A DNA stretch of 47,498 nt from a virus. Shown here in pieces: positions 191 to 32,550 of the stretch. How positions within the stretch are numbered: the first letter of the stretch is position 1; each line of letters opens with the position of its first letter. The DNA is taken from positions 1 through 47,498 of IMG/VR virus record IMGVR_UViG_3300028161_000002; one strand, written 5' to 3'. The translations under genes and the position numbers were made by a program. The notes under the pieces are model-generated. The model ran no database searches. It was given only the letters and a program-made list of their open reading frames with translations, and was not told the DNA's origin.

Positions 191-364
191 ATGGCTCAAA
201 ACACAGTAATGGCAAGATGTATGAAATGCGATGGCTATACCAAGCATTATGTCTTTGGCACAAAGACTGTCTGTGCGGGCTGCGGGGATGTGAAAGAATT
301 ATGTAATCTTGAAGTCATGGAATGGCTATCCCCAAAACAGGGTGGGAGTGAAAAGAGAGTATGA
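191..364 (+). CDS. Small zinc-ribbon protein (57 aa)
   Basis: ATG at 191, TGA at 362-364. The protein has two CxxC knuckles (C10/C13 and C28/C31) and a further Cys at 38, the layout of a small zinc ribbon of the kind scattered through phage early operons. Its last bases overlap the start of the transposase gene (ATG 361, ATGA overlap), so the two are translationally coupled. The exact role is unknown; nucleic-acid or protein binding is an inference from the zinc ribbon alone. Confidence 0.65.
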   Translation: MAQNTVMARCMKCDGYTKHYVFGTKTVCAGCGDVKELCNLEVMEWLSPKQGGSEKRV

Positions 365-1485
365 GTAAAAAAGAGGAAACCATTATGAAAGTTTATGCTA
401 TTGACTGGGCTACAAGGAAAGACCTGGCTATCTATGACGGCAAAAAGATCAAGAAAATTGCTAATACCATAAGTGAATTTGATAAGTTTTTAGAAAGCAT
501 AAAAGGGGGCGGTGCTACAATAATCGTGCCTAAAGTTGGTGCTAGGCCAGGATTGCCCGCCCCCATTTTACTGTTCGAGTTCGGTGGTGCAGACAGCTAT
601 AAAATCATGGCATACAGAGCTGGCTTTCAAGTCCTGCAAGTTCCTGGCAAAAAAGTTCATGATTATCGGGAATCGCTGGGAATAGAAAAGACTGATGAGA
701 ATGATGCGAAACTGATATATGATTTTTATATGAAGGAAAGGGAGAGTGCTATGATCATTATGCCTCAAAGTGCTAAGGTGAAATTGCCTCTCCCTGAAAA
801 TAAAAGAGGGGGCGGTGCTATCTGTAAAATGTCTAAAAAGATTGTTCTCTCTTTGCCCGCCCCTTTTTCTATATTCACAGAGCAAAGCGCCGACATTGCT
901 GAGATTAAAATACTCTTTCGCAGGCACGAGGATTTAAAGAAAGTTATGGTTCAAGAGAAAAACAAGAAATTCGCCCTCCAGAAACAATACGAAATTACAA
1001 ATATCGGTAAGAAAACGGTCAAGAAGCTGTTATCCCATTCAGATTATTCCATAGCTGGTAAGGAGAAAGAGATTGCAGAAATCAAGAAAATCCTAAAGTC
1101 AAAAGTTTCTAAATTCAGAGTTTGGAATAATTACTTGAAAGATATAAAAGGCGTTGGTGAATTTATAGCCTCTGGACTTATTGGAGAGCTTGGAGGCAGA
1201 CAATTCGATTCAGATGACAGCCTGAAACACTATGCTGGGATGGTAAAGAAATCGGCTCATTCTGATTATAACCATTATATAAAAGTAGTCTTATTCCAAT
1301 TTGCTGAAGGGATTATTAAAGCTAGAACTCCAATATGGCGTGAACTCTACGATAATATGAAGGTCTTTTATCAAAAGAAGCATGAGGATTGGAGTAAGGG
1401 AAAAGTCAATAATTATGCTAAGAAATTCATAGAGACAAAGTTTCTGTGTGAATTTTGGAAGCAATGGAAATTAGGAGAGAATTAA
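361..1485 (+). CDS. IS110-like DEDD transposase/recombinase with three in-frame inserts
   Basis: 374 aa. The N-terminal RuvC-like DEDD domain is recognisable from VYAIDWA (D15), FEFGG (E73) and KTDENDAKLIYD (D112, D115). The C-terminal IS110/IS116/IS902-type domain contains LKDIKGVGEFIASGLIGELG near residues 259-278 and a KKS (S298) in the region where the family carries its catalytic serine. All key residues are present, so the protein may be active. Two stretches do not fit the family: residues 49-68 (nt 505-564) and 127-169 (nt 739-867). Both are in frame, and removing them joins family-like sequence cleanly (FLESIK to ILLFEFGG; YMKE to SIFTEQ). Both consist of GC-rich palindromes. The gene overlaps the upstream zinc-ribbon gene by 4 bases, so it lacks the non-coding left end expected of a free IS110 element. 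It may be domesticated. Confidence 0.8.
   Translation: MSKKEETIMKVYAIDWATRKDLAIYDGKKIKKIANTISEFDKFLESIKGGGATIIVPKVGARPGLPAPILLFEFGGADSYKIMAYRAGFQVLQVPGKKVHDYRESLGIEKTDENDAKLIYDFYMKERESAMIIMPQSAKVKLPLPENKRGGGAICKMSKKIVLSLPAPFSIFTEQSADIAEIKILFRRHEDLKKVMVQEKNKKFALQKQYEITNIGKKTVKKLLSHSDYSIAGKEKEIAEIKKILKSKVSKFRVWNNYLKDIKGVGEFIASGLIGELGGRQFDSDDSLKHYAGMVKKSAHSDYNHYIKVVLFQFAEGIIKARTPIWRELYDNMKVFYQKKHEDWSKGKVNNYAKKFIETKFLCEFWKQWKLGEN
505..564 (+). repeat. Palindromic in-frame insert A (60 nt)
   Basis: Begins GGGGGCGGTGCTA and ends TTGCCCGCCCCC; the arms pair with one bulged T. Exactly 20 codons, no stop, starting on a codon boundary (codon 49) and ending five codons before the catalytic Glu. It shares layout and the conserved TGCTA...TTGC with inserts B and C. 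Confidence 0.7.
739..795 (+). repeat. Palindromic in-frame insert B (57 nt)
   Basis: Core arms are GGGAGAG-TGCTA and TTGC-CTCTCCC (740-794), with one more A-T pair outside. The stem sequence differs from inserts A and C at both strands so that pairing is kept (AGAG/CTCT in place of GCGG/CCGC), while TGCTA and TTGC are unchanged. It is separated from insert C by about 12 nt. Confidence 0.65.
804..868 (+). repeat. Palindromic in-frame insert C (core 809-863)
   Basis: Arms GGGGCGG-TGCTA and TTGC-CCGCCCC, extended outward by A/G-T pairs into the flanking AAAG and TTTT. Inserts B and C together with their linker occupy 739-867, which is 129 nt or 43 codons, so the reading frame is kept. The loop differs from that of A and B. 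Confidence 0.65.
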
Positions 1486-1530
1486 AGCATGGGGAAGAGG
1501 GAAATGTTATGGATAAGATGCCTAAAGGTG

Positions 1531-1591
1531 TTCTGCCAGCCTTGCTTGTCCCTCTTCTCCTTTTTAATTTTGGGAGTAGAGGCTGGCAGAA
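1531..1591 (+). other. 12-bp perfect inverted repeat downstream of the transposase
   Basis: TTCTGCCAGCCT (1531-1542) pairs perfectly with AGGCTGGCAGAA (1580-1591) around a 37-nt loop that can pair further (TTCTCC with GGGAG). It fills most of the 123-nt gap between the transposase and the replication gene. There is no terminal U-run, so it is not a standard terminator. It could be a remnant of a structured IS110-type non-coding end or a regulatory hairpin. Confidence 0.5.
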
Positions 1592-21330: not shown

Positions 21331-22356
21331 ATGAGCAATCAAAATGCTTCCCCTGCTATCCAACCAAACCTTCCTATCGATTCGCTCTCTTTAGGTAAGG
21401 AGCAGGGGAGGCTTTATAAAAATAGAAATTGGCTGTATCAAAAATATATTGTTGAACAATTGTCTACGCCCGATATTGGAAAAATATGTAATATACATCC
21501 ATCGACTATATATGTTTGGTTAAAAAAGTACAGATTAGAAACAAGAAGTTATAGTCAAAGTGTAAAAATAGCAAGAAAAAAATGGAAAGAAAAATATATA
21601 GGAACTAAAATATATCATAATAAAAACTGGCTTTACCAGAAATATTGGATTGAGGGTTTAGATTCAGAACAAATAGCATTTATAGCAGATACTAAATCAA
21701 ATACAATTATGAGATGGCTTAGACATAATAATATTAAAATAAAACCTAAAGGTGAAAATCAAAAAGGCAGAAAACATCTATCAAAAAGAGCTAAGAAATC
21801 AATTTCAAATAAGGCTAAATTAAGATGGAAAAACCCTATATATATAAAAAAAATGAGTAAAATTCTTAAAGGCACTCAGGCAGGAAAAAAGAATCCTAAT
21901 TATGGTGGTAAATTTACTAAATTAGATTGGGTTAGAAAAAAAATTAGCAAAGCTAATAAAGGAAGAAAAATAGGCGAAGAAGAAATGAAACGAAGAATAT
22001 TATCATGGAAAATTAGACCAACGAAATTAGAAAATATTTTTAATAATATGACAAATAAAAATATTAGATATATCGGAGATGGTTCATGGTGGCGAAAATT
22101 AAATGATGATCATTATCATAATCCAGATTTTAAGGTGACAGGACAAAATAAAATTATCGAAATATTCGGAGATTATTGGCATAGAAACGATAATCCACAA
22201 GAGCTTATAGATTTATATAATCAGGCAGGGCTTGATTGCCTAATAATCCATGAAAAAGAATTTTATCCACTTAACAATAGCCCTACAAAAAGAATTTTAA
22301 CTGAAAAGTATAAACAAGAGATATTAAAAAAAGTGAATAATTTTATTAATACTTGA
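21331..22356 (+). CDS. Homing endonuclease with tandem HTH, NUMOD3 motifs and Vsr-like nuclease
   Basis: 341 aa, strongly AT-rich against its GC-richer neighbours. Two tandem HTH units begin NRNWLYQKYIVEQL (about 31) and NKNWLYQKYWIEGL (about 97). NUMOD3-like motifs follow (GTQAGKKNPNYGG; ISKANKGRKIGEE). The C-terminal domain has E234, HNPDFKV (D266), IIEIFGDYWHR (E277, H284), the EDxHD/Vsr-like PD-(D/E)XK nuclease of phage homing enzymes. It has its own promoter and is flanked by terminators. It would cut an uninterrupted allele of the neighbouring protease gene to spread. Confidence 0.82.
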   Translation: MSNQNASPAIQPNLPIDSLSLGKEQGRLYKNRNWLYQKYIVEQLSTPDIGKICNIHPSTIYVWLKKYRLETRSYSQSVKIARKKWKEKYIGTKIYHNKNWLYQKYWIEGLDSEQIAFIADTKSNTIMRWLRHNNIKIKPKGENQKGRKHLSKRAKKSISNKAKLRWKNPIYIKKMSKILKGTQAGKKNPNYGGKFTKLDWVRKKISKANKGRKIGEEEMKRRILSWKIRPTKLENIFNNMTNKNIRYIGDGSWWRKLNDDHYHNPDFKVTGQNKIIEIFGDYWHRNDNPQELIDLYNQAGLDCLIIHEKEFYPLNNSPTKRILTEKYKQEILKKVNNFINT

Positions 22357-25655: not shown

Positions 25656-26294
25656 ATGTCTGAATACTGTGGTGATTACATCTGTTCTGAGGATGTGGAC
25701 AATTGGCCTGACGGAGCCGACAAAAAAGCGATAATCGATAAGGTTGAGCAGATAATTGATAAGGCCTGTCATACTCATTTCGGTGGCGAGGAATTTGACA
25801 TTGAGATTAACGGCAATGATAAGAACCGGCTCTTCCTTCCGCTCAAGTTGGACATAATCACGGTCACGCATGTCTATGTCTCGTGCATCGAGATGCCCGT
25901 ATCCTGGTACACGTGGGATAAGAATTCCGTGTTTCTTGATCCTTGCGTTCTTAGTGCCGGAGGTGCTTTCGGTCCGGAGCTTATACACAAGCTGGCAGCT
26001 GTCTATGAGGCTGGGATATTCCCTCGGGGCTATAACAACATCTTGATTCAGGGCACTTGTGGCGATGAAGGCGACGTGCCGGAGGCGATAAAGCAAGCGG
26101 CAATTATCCTTGCCAAGTGCGAGAACGATCCGACTCTCTATAATAATATTTCATACAAGAAATCTGAGAAGATAGGGGACTATTCCTATACCAATCTTGC
26201 TGGCTCACAGGATGAAATCCTGACAGGCATTCTTGAGGCCGACCAATTCCTTCGGCTTTATGTGAAGAAAAAACCGATAATAATGACGCCATGA
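25656..26294 (+). CDS. Head-tail connector (gp6/gp15-like)
   Basis: 212 aa; AAGGAG before ATG. The N-terminal helical part with ADKKAIIDKVEQIIDKACHT, a beta excursion (LFLPLKLDIITVTHVYV) and a C-terminal helix region (IKQAAIILAKCENDP then SEKIGDYSYT) match the head-tail adaptor family that closes the portal after packaging. Overlaps the glycosyltransferase gene by 4 bases. Confidence 0.7.
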   Translation: MSEYCGDYICSEDVDNWPDGADKKAIIDKVEQIIDKACHTHFGGEEFDIEINGNDKNRLFLPLKLDIITVTHVYVSCIEMPVSWYTWDKNSVFLDPCVLSAGGAFGPELIHKLAAVYEAGIFPRGYNNILIQGTCGDEGDVPEAIKQAAIILAKCENDPTLYNNISYKKSEKIGDYSYTNLAGSQDEILTGILEADQFLRLYVKKKPIIMTP

Positions 26295-29161
26295 TAATGG
26301 AAGCAGTTAGCATTAAGGAATATTCGATTCGAGCGGACAAATACGTATCCAGATCCAATGGATTCAGCAACCGCTTCCTGAAGGACGTACTGCCTGACAA
26401 CAGTTGGAAGGGCGAGGACTGCTATATCATAGGCGGTGGTCCGAGCCTCGAGAAGTTCGACTGGTCTCTGCTCAGGGGAAAGTTCACGATAGGAGTAAAC
26501 CGGGCATTCGAGAAATTCGATCCGACAATCATATTCTCGATGGATACCAAGTATTTAATATCCATTCTGGAAGGGCTTTATGGCCAGGACGCCCTGGACA
26601 AGTTCAATCGATCCAAAGCATACAAGGTATGGCTCTGCACATATGTCTGCAAGCTGCCGCCAGAGATATTCGTGATCCCGGTTTATATCAATTTTTCCAG
26701 AGGATTCAAGGCGTTCCCGACGACTATGAGGGACGGTATAGGCCACGGCAACAATTCCGGCTACGGTGCATTGAACTTGGCTGTATGTCTAGGGGTGAAA
26801 CGTATATTCCTTCTAGGATTCGACATGAAGCTCGATGGCAAAAAGACTCACTGGCATGACGGACATAAGAAGCCGATGAAGCCGGGCGTGCTGGAAAATT
26901 ACAAGACTTATTTCAATCATGCCGCGAATGAGATCAAGAGAAAAACGGATATTGAGGTGATCAACCTGAATCCTGATTCGGCGCTTGATTGCTTCCCCAA
27001 AAAGGATTATCGCGAAGTTATGAGGCTTACGGTCAGCAATAAAAATATAAGAACCGTACCCGAAGATAAAAAATCGCCAGCCGAAGCCAGGGCTAAAAAG
27101 CCATCCGTTTCCAAAGATATTAAATCGAGAATTGGAAATAGTTTTGTAACAGCGATCACCCCCACGGGAGATAGGCCTCTGCCATTCGCCCTGTGTCAGA
27201 AATGGATGATGAATCAGACCTTGCAACCAGATCAATGGATAATTGTTGATGATGGGAAAACGCCGACAATGCCAATTGTTTCCGGGAGTAATATTTTCTA
27301 CGTGAGAAGAAAGCCACAGCCTAGCGATCCACAATATACGCTTCTTCTTAATCTTAAAATGGCCTTGCCATTGATTAAAGGCAACAAAGTCATGATTATA
27401 GAGGATGATGAGTATTATGCTCCCAAATACATCGAGACTATGGCAGCTAGGCTCGATGAACATGAAATTGTCGGAATAGGCAAGAGTAAATATTACCATT
27501 TATTATCGGGGCATTATGCTCAAATAGGAAATGTACATCACGCCTCTTTTGCAGAGATGGCTTTCCGAAGTTCATTTCTACCTGAATTCATAAATTTTTT
27601 AGACGGAGGTCTTTATCTTGACATGAGAATCTGGAGAAGCATCAACAGGAATAGAACCTGCCTTTTCTTTGATGATGGCAAGTCAATATATGTCGGAATG
27701 AAAGGCATGCCAGGTCGTCATGGCATTGGTGGCGGACATGATATAAACCATAGAATATATCGAAACCAATTGCATGACTCATCAAGAGCAATGCTTAAAA
27801 AATGGATTCCAGATAATGACGATTATAAGATTTATATGGATATAATCAGCGGAAAGCTGACAGAAGAGAATTACAAATCAAAAATGAATTTATTATACAG
27901 CGTTAAAGATATTACTGGGATTACAGTATGCTATAATACGAAAGATTTAATAGCACGGGCTTATAATTCAGTCCGCAAATTTCATCCTAATATACCCATT
28001 ATCATTATTGATGGCTCTGATTCTAATAATTCATGTGCTACTTATGTTAAAACTTTGGCTTCAAGCTTAACGATCGTTAAATCGCTTGGATATAATATCG
28101 GTCATGGTAGAGGTATGCATATGGGGATTGGATTGGTCAAGACAAAATATGCTTTGATTTTCGATTCCGATACTGAGATGTTGAAATCCCCTGTTAATCA
28201 AATGATGAAGATGATGGAGGAGGATACGTTCGGTGTTGGCTATATAGAAAAAACCGATTTTGGCGGATATGAATATGGAGTCAGGCCCCAACATACAAAA
28301 CAAGGTTTGATGTTATACTTACATCCGTATTTTCAACTGATTAATATTAAAAATTATCATAAGTTCCATCCTTATGTTCATCACGGTGCGCCATGTCATT
28401 TAACTATGCTTGATATACATAACCGAGGTTTATCAAATAAAATATTAAAAAATTTCCCTAGTCTTGGTCATTCCGCTGGTAAAGGATTCAATTGGGAGGG
28501 GGTGCCGAGGGAATATATTCGTCATGACGTTCAAGGCACAAGAAAATATAGGGTTCAACATGGTTTACCTGCTATAGAAGGGGGTTGGATACATAAATTG
28601 AAAACAATCGCTTTTCTCACCCGTGTTCATCCTAATAGACCCAATATGCTAAAAATTTGCATCGATTCCATTAAAAAACAAACAAATGATGATTATATTC
28701 ATATTCTCAGTAGAGATGATAAGACCGAAAATGGCTATGGCCGATTCATGGCAAATAAATCATTTGCCAAAATTTCACCTATTAATGTCCGATATGTCAT
28801 GACTATTGACGATGATGATATGCTTATTGACCCAAATTTTGTTAAAATTTTCAAAGAAACCATCAATAAAAATAACCCAGAAATTGTCTTTTTCAAAGGC
28901 TATATTGGCGATCGTTTGTATCCTTGGCCAGGTTTTTGGAAAAAGGCTCCTGCCCGTGCACGAATAGCAAGCTTTTGTTTTGCCATCAGGCTGGATGTAT
29001 GGAAAAAATATATTCATGAGTTTGGCAAAAAAGCTTGTGGAGATTTCAGCTTTATCTCTGCATGTTATAGAAATACAAAGAATCATGTTTGGCTCGATCG
29101 CATTGTTGCAAAAACGCAGAGAAAAGCAGGATTTGGGAGGGGAGAATATGAACATGCTTGA
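26291..29161 (+). CDS. Giant multi-domain glycosyltransferase (956 aa)
   Basis: Four parts. Residues 1-235: a DUF115/MAF-like sugar-transfer domain (DCYIIGGGPSLEKFDWSLL, FTIGVNRAFEKF, IFLLGFDMKLDGKKTHWHD). About 285-540: GT-A-type domain with TAITPTGDRPLPF and IIEDDEYY. About 541-770: GT2-like domain with GITVCYNTKD and IFDSDTEM. About 770-956: GT2-like domain with TIAFLTRVHPNRPNM and IDDDDM. DxD-type metal/nucleotide-sugar motifs are present in the last three. Base composition changes sharply near nt 27030 (residue ~247), at the end of the first domain: GC-rich before, AT-rich after. It looks like a head-module gene fused to foreign glycosyltransferase domains. Role: virion or surface glycan building. 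Confidence 0.78.
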   Translation: MIMEAVSIKEYSIRADKYVSRSNGFSNRFLKDVLPDNSWKGEDCYIIGGGPSLEKFDWSLLRGKFTIGVNRAFEKFDPTIIFSMDTKYLISILEGLYGQDALDKFNRSKAYKVWLCTYVCKLPPEIFVIPVYINFSRGFKAFPTTMRDGIGHGNNSGYGALNLAVCLGVKRIFLLGFDMKLDGKKTHWHDGHKKPMKPGVLENYKTYFNHAANEIKRKTDIEVINLNPDSALDCFPKKDYREVMRLTVSNKNIRTVPEDKKSPAEARAKKPSVSKDIKSRIGNSFVTAITPTGDRPLPFALCQKWMMNQTLQPDQWIIVDDGKTPTMPIVSGSNIFYVRRKPQPSDPQYTLLLNLKMALPLIKGNKVMIIEDDEYYAPKYIETMAARLDEHEIVGIGKSKYYHLLSGHYAQIGNVHHASFAEMAFRSSFLPEFINFLDGGLYLDMRIWRSINRNRTCLFFDDGKSIYVGMKGMPGRHGIGGGHDINHRIYRNQLHDSSRAMLKKWIPDNDDYKIYMDIISGKLTEENYKSKMNLLYSVKDITGITVCYNTKDLIARAYNSVRKFHPNIPIIIIDGSDSNNSCATYVKTLASSLTIVKSLGYNIGHGRGMHMGIGLVKTKYALIFDSDTEMLKSPVNQMMKMMEEDTFGVGYIEKTDFGGYEYGVRPQHTKQGLMLYLHPYFQLINIKNYHKFHPYVHHGAPCHLTMLDIHNRGLSNKILKNFPSLGHSAGKGFNWEGVPREYIRHDVQGTRKYRVQHGLPAIEGGWIHKLKTIAFLTRVHPNRPNMLKICIDSIKKQTNDDYIHILSRDDKTENGYGRFMANKSFAKISPINVRYVMTIDDDDMLIDPNFVKIFKETINKNNPEIVFFKGYIGDRLYPWPGFWKKAPARARIASFCFAIRLDVWKKYIHEFGKKACGDFSFISACYRNTKNHVWLDRIVAKTQRKAGFGRGEYEHA

Positions 29162-29897
29162 TTTAATAGATATTATAATCCCGACTTATAATAATTCGGA
29201 TTATACGATCCAATGCCTAAAAAGCATTAAAAAGAATACAGTTGTTCCATATCGAATAATATGGATAGATGATGGTTCAACAATGGCTGAATATCAAAGA
29301 GTTTTAATCGAATTAAAAGAGTGGGGAATTGATCATGTGGTATATAGAACAGAAAAAAATATAGGATTTGCTAAAGCTGTAAATGTTGGTATTAGACTTT
29401 CAGGATCGGATCCGATTGTTCTTTTGAATAACGATGTTGTGGTTACCAAAGGATGGTTGAGAAGATTGATATATGGTTTTGGAATCAACAAAAAAATCGG
29501 AATCATCGGAGCCATGACAAATAAATGTGGTTCTAATCAACAATATGAAAGACTTATGAGATATTTGAGACGTCCAGTTCCCAAAGAGCCTGAAAAATAT
29601 TTTAGAGATTTAGATCCAGAAACGATTCCAGTCAATTCAAATATTTCATATTTTTGTACGGCTATAAGCAGAAAAGTTATAAATAAGATTGATCTTCTGG
29701 ATGAAGATTTCATGAATGGTGGTGAAGACGATGATTATAATGACAGAGCCAGATTGGCTGGATTCAAGACAAACATAGCTCTTAATTGCTTTGTATGGCA
29801 TGAACATGAGGCTACAAGAAGAAAAGTTTTAGACCAAAAAACAAGAAAAAGAAATCTGGATTTATATCTTAAAAAAAAGGCTGAAAGAAGAATATGA
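29148..29897 (+). CDS. GT2 family glycosyltransferase
   Basis: 249 aa from ATG 29148 (GGGAGGGG upstream), overlapping the previous gene by 14 bases. IDIIIPTYNNSDYTIQCLKS, WIDDGST and VLLNNDVVV (DxD-like NND) are the GT-A/GT2 nucleotide-sugar motifs; GGEDDDYNDRARLAG and the FVWHEHEAT His are the acceptor-side catalytic region of rhamnosyl/GlcNAc-type GT2 enzymes. Would add a sugar from a nucleotide donor to a glycan acceptor. Confidence 0.87.
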   Translation: MNMLDLIDIIIPTYNNSDYTIQCLKSIKKNTVVPYRIIWIDDGSTMAEYQRVLIELKEWGIDHVVYRTEKNIGFAKAVNVGIRLSGSDPIVLLNNDVVVTKGWLRRLIYGFGINKKIGIIGAMTNKCGSNQQYERLMRYLRRPVPKEPEKYFRDLDPETIPVNSNISYFCTAISRKVINKIDLLDEDFMNGGEDDDYNDRARLAGFKTNIALNCFVWHEHEATRRKVLDQKTRKRNLDLYLKKKAERRI

Positions 29898-30760
29898 AGA
29901 TATTGATTGCACTCTATGAACTTGAGAATTTCTTTGGAGGAGTGCAAACTTGGTCTATTACCATGTATCATGCATTGAAAAAACTAGGTCAAGACGTATA
30001 TTTTTTCACTCATTCAAATAAAATAAATGAAAATTATAAGAGATTACCATTTGTCCGTAATGGGGATTTTGATCTGATCCTTTGTAATATAAATATAGTA
30101 CTAAATGATATTAAGAATTTTAAAGGCAAGAAAGTCTTTATATCGCATGGCATATTGTCTAAGCTGGCTCAACCGATTAACGGAGCAGATATTTATATCG
30201 CCGTATCTGAAGAAACAGCACATGCTTGTGAAACTACTGGTTTTCATATTGATAAGATAATTAGAAATCCTATAGATTGCGATAGATTCTTTTTTTCGTC
30301 ATGCCGTAAAGAACTAAAGACAATCGCTTTTTTTGATAGACGTAGGATATTTAGTTTTACAGATGAATTAAAGAATTACGGGTTTGAAGTTTTTGAAATA
30401 GGCTATCCCCCAATACTAAATCCAGAGGTAATAATAGCAAAAGCAGACCTCATCGTAGCTAGAGGCAGAGGAGCTTACGAAGCTATGGCAATGGGGAAAA
30501 ATGTCATAATAAGTGGCAATGATAGTGGCCGATCCAATACAGAACTTATGGATGGCTTTGTTGATAATGAGATGTTTTTCAAGTTCAGACGAAATAATCT
30601 GAGTGGTCGCTATAATCGGATAACTATATCCTCAGTTGATATCTTTTTGAAAGAACTTGGAAAATATAATAATAAACAAGGATCATTAAATCGAAAACTA
30701 ATTTTGAATCATAACAATAGCCAAATTATAGCAAAACAATTTATGGAACTAGCAAATTAA
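29894..30760 (+). CDS. GT-B glycosyltransferase (GT4-like)
   Basis: 288 aa, shorter than usual GT4 enzymes. N-terminal [20 protein letters not shown] with the Gly-rich nucleotide-sugar region, [28 protein letters not shown] and a linker to the C-terminal Rossmann domain ([20 protein letters not shown], a family E-x7-E-like region). Coupled to the upstream GT2 by ATGA overlap. Part of the glycan-modification block. Confidence 0.75.
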
Positions 30761-30770
30761 CAGAGAAACA

Positions 30771-31352
30771 ATGTGTCATATGAGCTGCCTTGAATTTGGG
30801 AAAAGAACTTTAAATCAAAAAGAGATTGAAGGGAAAAAAATTATTGAAGTTGGTTCGCTAAATGTAAATGGTAGTCTGAGAGATACGATTATAAAATATA
30901 ATCCGGCTAACTATATCGGTATAGATATAATACAAGGTCCTGGAGTAGATGTAATATGTAAAGCTGAAAATATGGTAAAAAAGTTTGGGAAGAATAGCTT
31001 TGATGTAGTTGTCTCAACAGAGTTGCTTGAACATGTGAAAGACTGGAGAAAGGTGATACATAATATTAAGAACATCTGCAAACCAGATGGTATAATAAGC
31101 ATAACCACTCGTTCATATGGTTACCTTTTTCATGAATATCCTAATGATTTCTGGAGGTATGAACTAGAAGATATGGAAAGAATATTTTCAGATTGTAATA
31201 TAATAATTTTAGAGAAGGATAACTCGAATATTATCTCAAAAAGGAATAGGCCTGGTGTTTTCCTGAAAGTCAAGAAACCAACAAATTTCATCGAGAGAAA
31301 TCTATCTGGAATATTATTGTATAATATTAATTCTAAAAAAAGGGTTAAATAA
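30771..31352 (+). CDS. Class I SAM-dependent methyltransferase
   Basis: 193 aa. [17 protein letters not shown] is motif I (EVGS), YIGIDIIQG motif II, and [16 protein letters not shown] motif IV/post, followed by [15 protein letters not shown]. Typical of small-molecule or sugar methyltransferases such as those of surface-polysaccharide loci. Lies between glycosyltransferase and sulfotransferase genes, so a capping O-methyl transfer on a glycan is likely. Confidence 0.82.
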
Positions 31353-31354
31353 AA

Positions 31355-31996
31355 TTGAAAGTCATAATAACTGGAATGGGTAGATCGGGAACGTCTCTAG
31401 TGACAGGTTTACTTCAAATGTGCGGTTTGTATTTGGGCAATAATTTACTTCTACCACGAAAGGATAACCCCAAAGGGTTTTTTGAGGATTTGGAATTTCT
31501 GGCTATAAACAGAGAGATGTTTGCATTGAATAGTAACGGAGGAGGTGGCGGGCAAAAGCCTCCGAAGGAAATAAAAGTTTTGCCAGATAAGCTTATAACC
31601 CAAATGAAGCAATTTATTGATAATTGGCCAAAAAATAAAATTGTTGGATGGAAAGACCCTAGAGCATGTATTACTATTAGAATATGGAAAAAATTTATAG
31701 AGCCTGAAAAACTTAAAGTTGTAATTGTTAGAAGACCATATTCTGAAATAGCTAACAGCCTTAATACAAGGCATAACATGAATAAAATAACTGGATTAAA
31801 ATTATGCAAAATTTATTATCATGCAATTGATGAAAATCTTTCTGAAATCGATTATGTAAATACTTTCTATCATAATTATTTTAAAGATTGGATAAGAGAG
31901 CTTAAAATGGTATCGGATTTTATAGGCTTGGAAATTCCTAAAAATAAAATAGAAAGTTTTATTGATATTAAATTATGGCATAACAGGGGAAAATAA
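31355..31996 (+). CDS. Sulfotransferase (TTG start)
   Basis: 213 aa from TTG 31355; no other start fits. VIITGMGRSGTSLVTGLLQM is the 5'-PSB/P-loop-like PAPS-binding motif of carbohydrate sulfotransferases, and KVVIVRRPYSEIANSL is the 3'-phosphate-binding motif. Would transfer sulfate from PAPS to a sugar hydroxyl. Viral sulfotransferases are rare; with the glycosyl- and methyltransferases it suggests a sulfated glycan on virion or host surface. The PAPS must come from the host. Confidence 0.82.
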   Translation: MKVIITGMGRSGTSLVTGLLQMCGLYLGNNLLLPRKDNPKGFFEDLEFLAINREMFALNSNGGGGGQKPPKEIKVLPDKLITQMKQFIDNWPKNKIVGWKDPRACITIRIWKKFIEPEKLKVVIVRRPYSEIANSLNTRHNMNKITGLKLCKIYYHAIDENLSEIDYVNTFYHNYFKDWIRELKMVSDFIGLEIPKNKIESFIDIKLWHNRGK

Positions 31997-31997
31997 A

Positions 31998-32321
31998 ATG
32001 TCATATAACAGCCTATTAATCAACAAAGTCGATTTGATAGATACGACCACAGTTCAATGGGGAGAGCCAAAGGAAACAGTAATAAGCGACGTAGTTTGCC
32101 GAATCATGTATACGAACAAGCTGATGCGGAACTATCAGGGAGAGGAAGTTCTGTCATTCGCAAAGCTGTTCTTCAAGCCGGCACAGACAATCAACCATAT
32201 GATGAAGGTGCGGATAACTGACCCACAGGATGCAACAAAGACGATAGATCATCCGATTATCCAGATAACGAGACCACAGAATTCAACTGCGATTCACCAT
32301 ACGGAGGTCTGGATATCATAA
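31998..32321 (+). CDS. Head-tail joining / tail adaptor protein (107 aa)
   Basis: Start ATG 31998 behind CAGGGGAAA. Beta-rich protein with SDVVCRIMYTNKLMRNYQGE and a closing ITRPQNSTAIHHTEVWIS, matching the small joining proteins that follow the connector in HK97-type gene order. The glycan block thus separates two neighbouring connector genes. GC content rises again here. Confidence 0.6.
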   Translation: MSYNSLLINKVDLIDTTTVQWGEPKETVISDVVCRIMYTNKLMRNYQGEEVLSFAKLFFKPAQTINHMMKVRITDPQDATKTIDHPIIQITRPQNSTAIHHTEVWIS

Positions 32322-32367: not shown

Positions 32368-32550
32368 GAATAGGATAGAATGCTATGACTATAATGCAAA
32401 AATTTTTGCTATTACATAATTGCTTCTATCCTAGATATTCTTGAAGACTAAGGTGAAAACTTAGCTTGTCACGCTTAGACGTTCAAAGCAATTAAAAAGC
32501 TTGAATGTTCCTTCCAAGCGTAGGAAATTCAAAATTAGAGAGATATGTTT
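32368..32550 (+). promoter_or_regulatory. Leader RNA B, structured, related to leader A
   Basis: 5' hairpin: TAGGATAGAA (32371-32380) with TTCTATCCTA (32424-32433), enclosing the palindrome GCAAAAATTTTTGC (32396-32409). Then CTAAG/CTTAG (32448-32464), ACGCTT/AAGCGT (32471-32476, 32516-32521) and CGTTCAA-A-GC with GCTTGAATG (32480-32507). The 3' arm TTGAATGTTCC (32501-32511) can instead pair with GGAAATTCAA (32523-32532). This is the same motif order and the same switch as in leader A, but without a T-run. Confidence 0.5.

Follow-up and report, generated by a model that had tools for sequence, protein, structure and literature searches.

A probable phage TIGR-TasR locus with stem-loop guide units inside the tasR coding sequence

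Among the TIGR-Tas systems, stem-loop arrays have been described for the TasA of a Peromyscus gut contig and for the TasR with inactive RuvC of candidate phyla radiation (CPR) bacteria (Faure et al. 2025, PMC12045711). These arrays have variable palindromic stems for edge repeats, two spacers of 8-12 nt, the boxes C and D and an adjacent Nop-domain protein; TIGR arrays are placed beside the tas gene in the published description, and their origin, spacer gain and maturation are stated as open in the founding paper (PMC12045711). Here we describe a tasR-like gene on a stretch of 47,498 nucleotides of viral DNA (IMG/VR record IMGVR_UViG_3300028161_000002, positions 1 to 47,498; the window in the following), which carries palindromic units both within its open reading frame (ORF) and directly behind it. 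The locus very probably represents a TIGR-TasR system of a phage, of the stem-loop-array type, with part of its guide units placed within the coding sequence of tasR.

The tasR-like gene and its palindromic units

The gene and the five units, A to E, are listed below. Site 1 is located before the LLFEFGG strand of the protein, and site 2 between its RuvC and Nop parts.

361..1485, plus strand: tasR-like gene (RuvC and Nop domains), an ORF assigned by PDB 9mty (sequence and fold) and by homologue alignment
505..564, plus strand: unit A, in the ORF at site 1; arms 505-512/557-564; box C 513-517 and 540-544; box D 527-529 and 554-556; spacer A 518-526 CAATAATCG; spacer B 545-553 GGCCAGGAT
739..795, plus strand: unit B, in the ORF at site 2; arms 739-746/788-795; box C 747-751 and 771-775; box D 761-763 and 785-787; spacer A 752-760 TGATCATTA; spacer B 776-784 AGGTGAAAT
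804..868, plus strand: unit C, in the ORF at site 2; core 808-864; spacer A 821-829 TCTGTAAAA; second box C degenerate (840-844, GATTG); probable spacer B 845-853
1491..1560, plus strand: unit E, just 3' of the tasR stop codon; outer arms 1491-1502/1549-1560; TGTTA 1505-1509 and TGTTC 1529-1533; spacers 1510-1518 TGGATAAGA and 1534-1542 TGCCAGCCT
32371..32433, plus strand: unit D, intergenic; 10-bp arms TAGGATAGAA/TTCTATCCTA, in sequence unlike the other arms; spacers 32386-32394 TGACTATAA and 32412-32420 TTACATAAT

The aligned copies share the layout arm - TGCTA - 9 nt - TGC - short loop - TGCTA - 9 nt - TGC - arm'. Units A, B and D match it exactly, E carries TGTTA and TGTTC for TGCTA, and in C the second TGCTA is degenerate; apart from C, the units look intact. 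A, B and C each fold into a stem, in which the last TGC pairs through its GC with that of the first TGCTA and the T before this last TGC's GC forms a bulge, and all three are in frame with the tasR ORF and free of stops, at the coordinates given by a first-pass annotation made from the window sequence alone. The scheme proposed there for the inserts holds for the arms, whereas its core of TGCTA, "30-40 variable bases" and TTGC resolves into two TGCTA boxes, two TGC boxes and two variable stretches of 9 nt. Because this unit grammar equals that of the published stem-loop arrays (PMC12045711), A to E are, judged by their sequence, TIGR stem-loop guide units. DNA hairpins of the attC-like or IS200-like kind were considered and rejected.

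Compared with these arrays, the window shows three differences: its TasR keeps the RuvC acidic residues, the units occur on phage contigs, and some of them are in frame inside the tas ORF. Unit E adjoins the gene as in the published arrays, whereas A, B and C within the ORF are a departure. With the dual-repeat TIGR-TasR systems (TaTasR, PDB 9mty) the locus shares a RuvC plus Nop protein, closest in sequence and fold, and tandem spacers of 9 nt. Unlike TaTasR it has no edge repeat, its stems are variable, and the units are found in and around the gene instead of in a 36-nt-period array beside it.

The likelier start of the gene is ATG 385, since the homologues begin there and an AGAGGA motif is located upstream. 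The only PDB sequence match of the protein was 9mty_A (phmmer, E 2e-13). Its AlphaFold model (mean predicted local distance difference test score, pLDDT, of 81) gave as best Foldseek match again 9mty, the TIGR-TasR in complex with tigRNA and target DNA (E 3e-12, probability 1.00), followed by IS110 recombinases and then by TasH. By sequence and modelled fold, the gene product is thus assigned to the TIGR-TasR nucleases (RuvC and Nop) of the Tas family, with an N-terminal RuvC. A search of phage records gave no homologue that is close over the entire protein.

The gene had initially been annotated as an IS110/DEDD transposase, and an IS110 transposase with embedded bridge-RNA-like structures would agree with the Pfam IS110 domains that the protein carries and with the IS110 recombinases as second-best fold matches. 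The IS110/IS1111 transposases with their bridge RNA resemble the window protein in overall fold and in the RNA-binding domain. TasR is, however, the best match by both sequence and fold. In an alignment of seven homologues the RuvC acidic residues D15, E73, D112 and D115 named by the first-pass annotation are invariant, whereas S298, which it also listed, is not conserved. Furthermore, the locus has many guide units in place of a single bridge RNA, and the gene is fixed between phage genes; no element ends were seen, though no systematic search for ends was made. We therefore regard the IS110 reading as highly implausible.

Further copies and related loci

The window was scanned with the pattern arm-TGCTA-N(10-70)-TTGC-arm', which picked up the three inserts and one further copy, D; letter-shuffled windows served as control and contained on average 0.03 matches with arms of at least 5 bp. 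A covariance model built from A to D identified a fifth, more diverged copy, E, at 1498-1553 (35.7 bits, E 9e-8). The search by arm pattern and covariance model suggested by the first-pass annotation thus yielded D and E in the window, and further copies in its relatives. No arm-pattern match with arms of at least 6 bp was present in viral DNA from other sources (about 1.15 Mb), barring one locus fetched for that very pattern, and in 0.54 Mb of such DNA the covariance model scored nothing above 17 bits. The exact arm pattern had two matches in viral contigs, which is within chance, and none in genomes; the core pattern TGCTATGANNATNATGC gave chance matches only (then used as control DNA), a longer core pattern gave none, and an Rfam search returned nothing. 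A 12-bp perfect inverted repeat at 1531-1591 (TTCTGCCAGCCT/AGGCTGGCAGAA) overlaps unit E and takes in its spacer B; it may constitute an alternative hairpin or a terminator.

Homologues were obtained from IMG/VR and from two genome bins, which may be mis-binned virus. The nearest relatives hold in-ORF units at the same two positions as the window, in varying number. To the one unit at site 1 (A) and the two at site 2 (B, C) of the window correspond two and one in L138 (81% identity), one and two in L133 (55%), and none and three in L137 (56%), while L136 (33%) has a single in-ORF unit, at site 1; L133, L137 and L136 have flanking units too. The in-ORF units of these five related tasR genes amount to 13, and the units of the relatives are built to the same grammar as those of the window. 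In L132/L134 (41%, tblastn) the gene has no insert, and four tandem units follow directly after it, with one before. At least nine units precede the gene in L147/L148 and in L149, with one or two downstream. The similar tasR loci L147:3160-4001 and L149:3116-3983 carry tandem stem-loop arrays, and some of their matching units keep both spacers while in others these are replaced. On a 98-kb virus contig, a 10-bp palindrome (AAGTGGGTGG/CCACCCACTT) with other box motifs is in frame at tasR site 2 (L135:5301-5370), and similar palindromes flank that tasR gene. In 199 genomes from the phylum of L137 only the known locus was found, and the contigs L004-L009, which share the terminase, do not extend over the region of tasR.

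In-frame hairpins within ORFs are known from the Rickettsia palindromic elements, the byps and the hop of T4 gene 60, which resemble the window units. Those of the window differ from all of these by their guide-RNA anatomy, by their link to the protein encoded by the very gene in which they lie and by showing no sign of skipping, and they are not dispersed over many unrelated genes as the Rickettsia elements are. A mobile palindrome family had been among the options of the first-pass annotation; several related in-frame copies, one copy far off at 32 kb and a copy number that varies among relatives would suit a family of the Rickettsia kind, spreading through coding sequences without relation to protein function. 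We consider it very improbable, as every copy except D lies in or beside tasR, none was found in control viral DNA, homologues of tasR are accompanied by tandem arrays of the same units, and two exact 9-nt hypervariable stretches per unit suit guides.

Stem covariation, spacer turnover and reading frame

In an alignment of 40 units from eight records, which was fitted to the tested structure and is hence somewhat biased in its favour, stems were paired in 97.2% of the cells compared with 74.7% after shuffling, 115 stem cells were double-changed (31 shuffled), and the stem covariation score was 0.77 (0.30 shuffled). Pairing dropped to 49-63% in controls with the partner slid. The stem-conserving relationship among the in-frame palindromes, as noticed initially, is thereby borne out. 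When full-length mRNAs were folded, most in-ORF stems formed with a probability of 0.6-1.0.

Comparison of A and B with their counterparts in L138 revealed that 68 of 71 framework bases are the same (96%), compared with 11 of 36 spacer bases (31%; Fisher 8e-13). Spacers that are hypervariable within a conserved framework fit a guide-like evolution, as far as can be judged from sequence. This observation bears on the alternative that the in-ORF units are retired guide copies, caught in the tasR ORF and now kept only as peptide linkers that do no harm, while the units outside would be the sole source of guides. The degenerate second box C of unit C, the permissive disordered loops in which the sites lie and the close homologues that manage without in-ORF units would all be expected of such copies. 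Dead units would lose arm complementarity and box sequence first, however, and A, B and the L138 units keep their boxes, exact 9+9 spacers and paired arms, with only the spacers diverged. Retirement of the in-ORF units is therefore unlikely.

The 13 in-ORF units all share one phase (G/GCT/A), in which all of them are stop-free, compared with 12 of the 28 units outside ORFs; their length is divisible by 3 in every case, compared with 6 of 28 outside (Fisher 1.5e-6). Since phase, length and absence of stops agree in 13 of 13 units, these are under coding constraint and almost surely translated. The "translated peptide insert" among the initial options is accordingly the best reading of the frame data. 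Removal of the inserts from RNA or their skipping by ribosomes, in the manner of introns or byps, had been proposed alongside it and could draw on the presence of hairpins in a coding frame, a feature shared with byps and T4 gene 60. Neither process would require a fixed phase, a length in multiples of 3 or the absence of stops, by which the in-ORF units are set apart from those outside, and the chance that either takes place here seems next to negligible. In the AlphaFold model the window inserts appear as low-confidence loops (residues 50-64 and 133-163, pLDDT <50), and we infer that they would become translated, disordered surface loops.

A dual-coding guide array and its possible targets

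From these data the tasR ORF would be dual-coding, specifying translated loops and probable guides. By analogy with the published system, the tasR message would be both translated into TasR and processed, perhaps by cuts in the A-rich linkers that separate the units, to stem-loop tigRNAs for the loading of a TasR dimer. The two 9-nt spacers would then pair with opposite strands of an 18-bp target and lead to double-strand cleavage, like in the published TasR; the predicted targets are CAATAATCG-ATCCTGGCC for unit A and TGATCATTA-ATTTCACCT for unit B. Because a message would be lost with the excision of any of its in-ORF units, the production of guides would be in competition with that of TasR, which amounts to a built-in negative feedback. 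A more far-reaching form of this explanation is possible, though we hold it only tentatively: a guide array of replaceable units in the nuclease's own coding sequence, the spacers of which (exactly three codons each) turn over in frame, the excision of which limits the nuclease and some guides of which aim at the tasR of rival phages.

Several points weigh against the assignment as a TIGR-TasR system with guides in the coding sequence. The loci are few, stem from metagenomic contigs and have uncertain hosts. The stem of unit B reaches a probability of only 0.39 in the full message, and unit C has its degenerate box. We infer both the processing of in-ORF units to tigRNAs and the translation of the inserts from sequence, and the published maturation data refer to other Tas systems. 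A convincing natural target was not found either: a search of 160 kb for spacer A followed, after 0-2 nt, by the reverse complement of spacer B, as in the published geometry, gave 40 near-matches (at most 3 mismatches), compared with 18-39 in scrambled controls.

The window's own tasR contains, at 1263-1282, a match to the spacers of unit D that has a 2-nt gap and, in each spacer, a single mismatch at position 4. It is the only 2-mismatch match in tasR ORFs and is reached by 24 of 200 shuffles, so that it represents a lead only and not evidence. Position 4 lies in the seed by the rule published for TaTasR, and the pattern looks as if the unit D target TGACTATAACCATTATGTAA in a related tasR were aimed at and the own tasR spared, an idea that belongs to the tentative form given above. 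The matched stretch falls at the conserved SDYNHYIK motif.

Term searches in the main texts of papers devoted to TIGR-Tas gave no mention of units inside tas ORFs; supplementary tables were outside that search, so a prior notice is possible. The in-ORF location of guide units hence appears to be new. The counts at the two fixed loops (site 1 plus site 2: 1+2, 2+1, 1+2, 0+3) provide a natural record of the gain or loss of units, and the exchange of both spacers with stem, boxes and loop kept provides one of spacer replacement; the format of two 9-nt spacers thereby proves compatible with translation. Should the tasR message serve as a source of guides, this RNA-guided nuclease would have an mRNA that doubles as the precursor of its guides, which brings automatic feedback, and the constraints on protein, RNA structure and guides would overlap in an unusual way.

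In-frame overlap with the tas gene may extend to a dual-repeat array. At L154:1-410, in genome G343 from the phylum to which the Aenigmatarchaeota bin belongs, the ORF of a Nop-domain protein stays open from the first bases of the contig across a TIGR-like dual-repeat array with a 36-nt period (ATGCGAGCC - 9 nt - TTGAATCCC - 9 nt), and there is no in-frame ATG between the array and the Nop domain.

The position of tasR varies among the phages, from the early region in the window to between terminase and portal in L134. Such shifting may resemble that of free-standing homing nucleases and would fit a competition between phages. At 21331-22356 the window contains an HNH endonuclease gene; exactly there, L133 has tasR and its units. 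Between the head and tail genes of the window, at 26291-32000, genes for a sialyltransferase-like protein, a glycosyltransferase and a methyltransferase are located, and the GC content is low at 28-32 kb.
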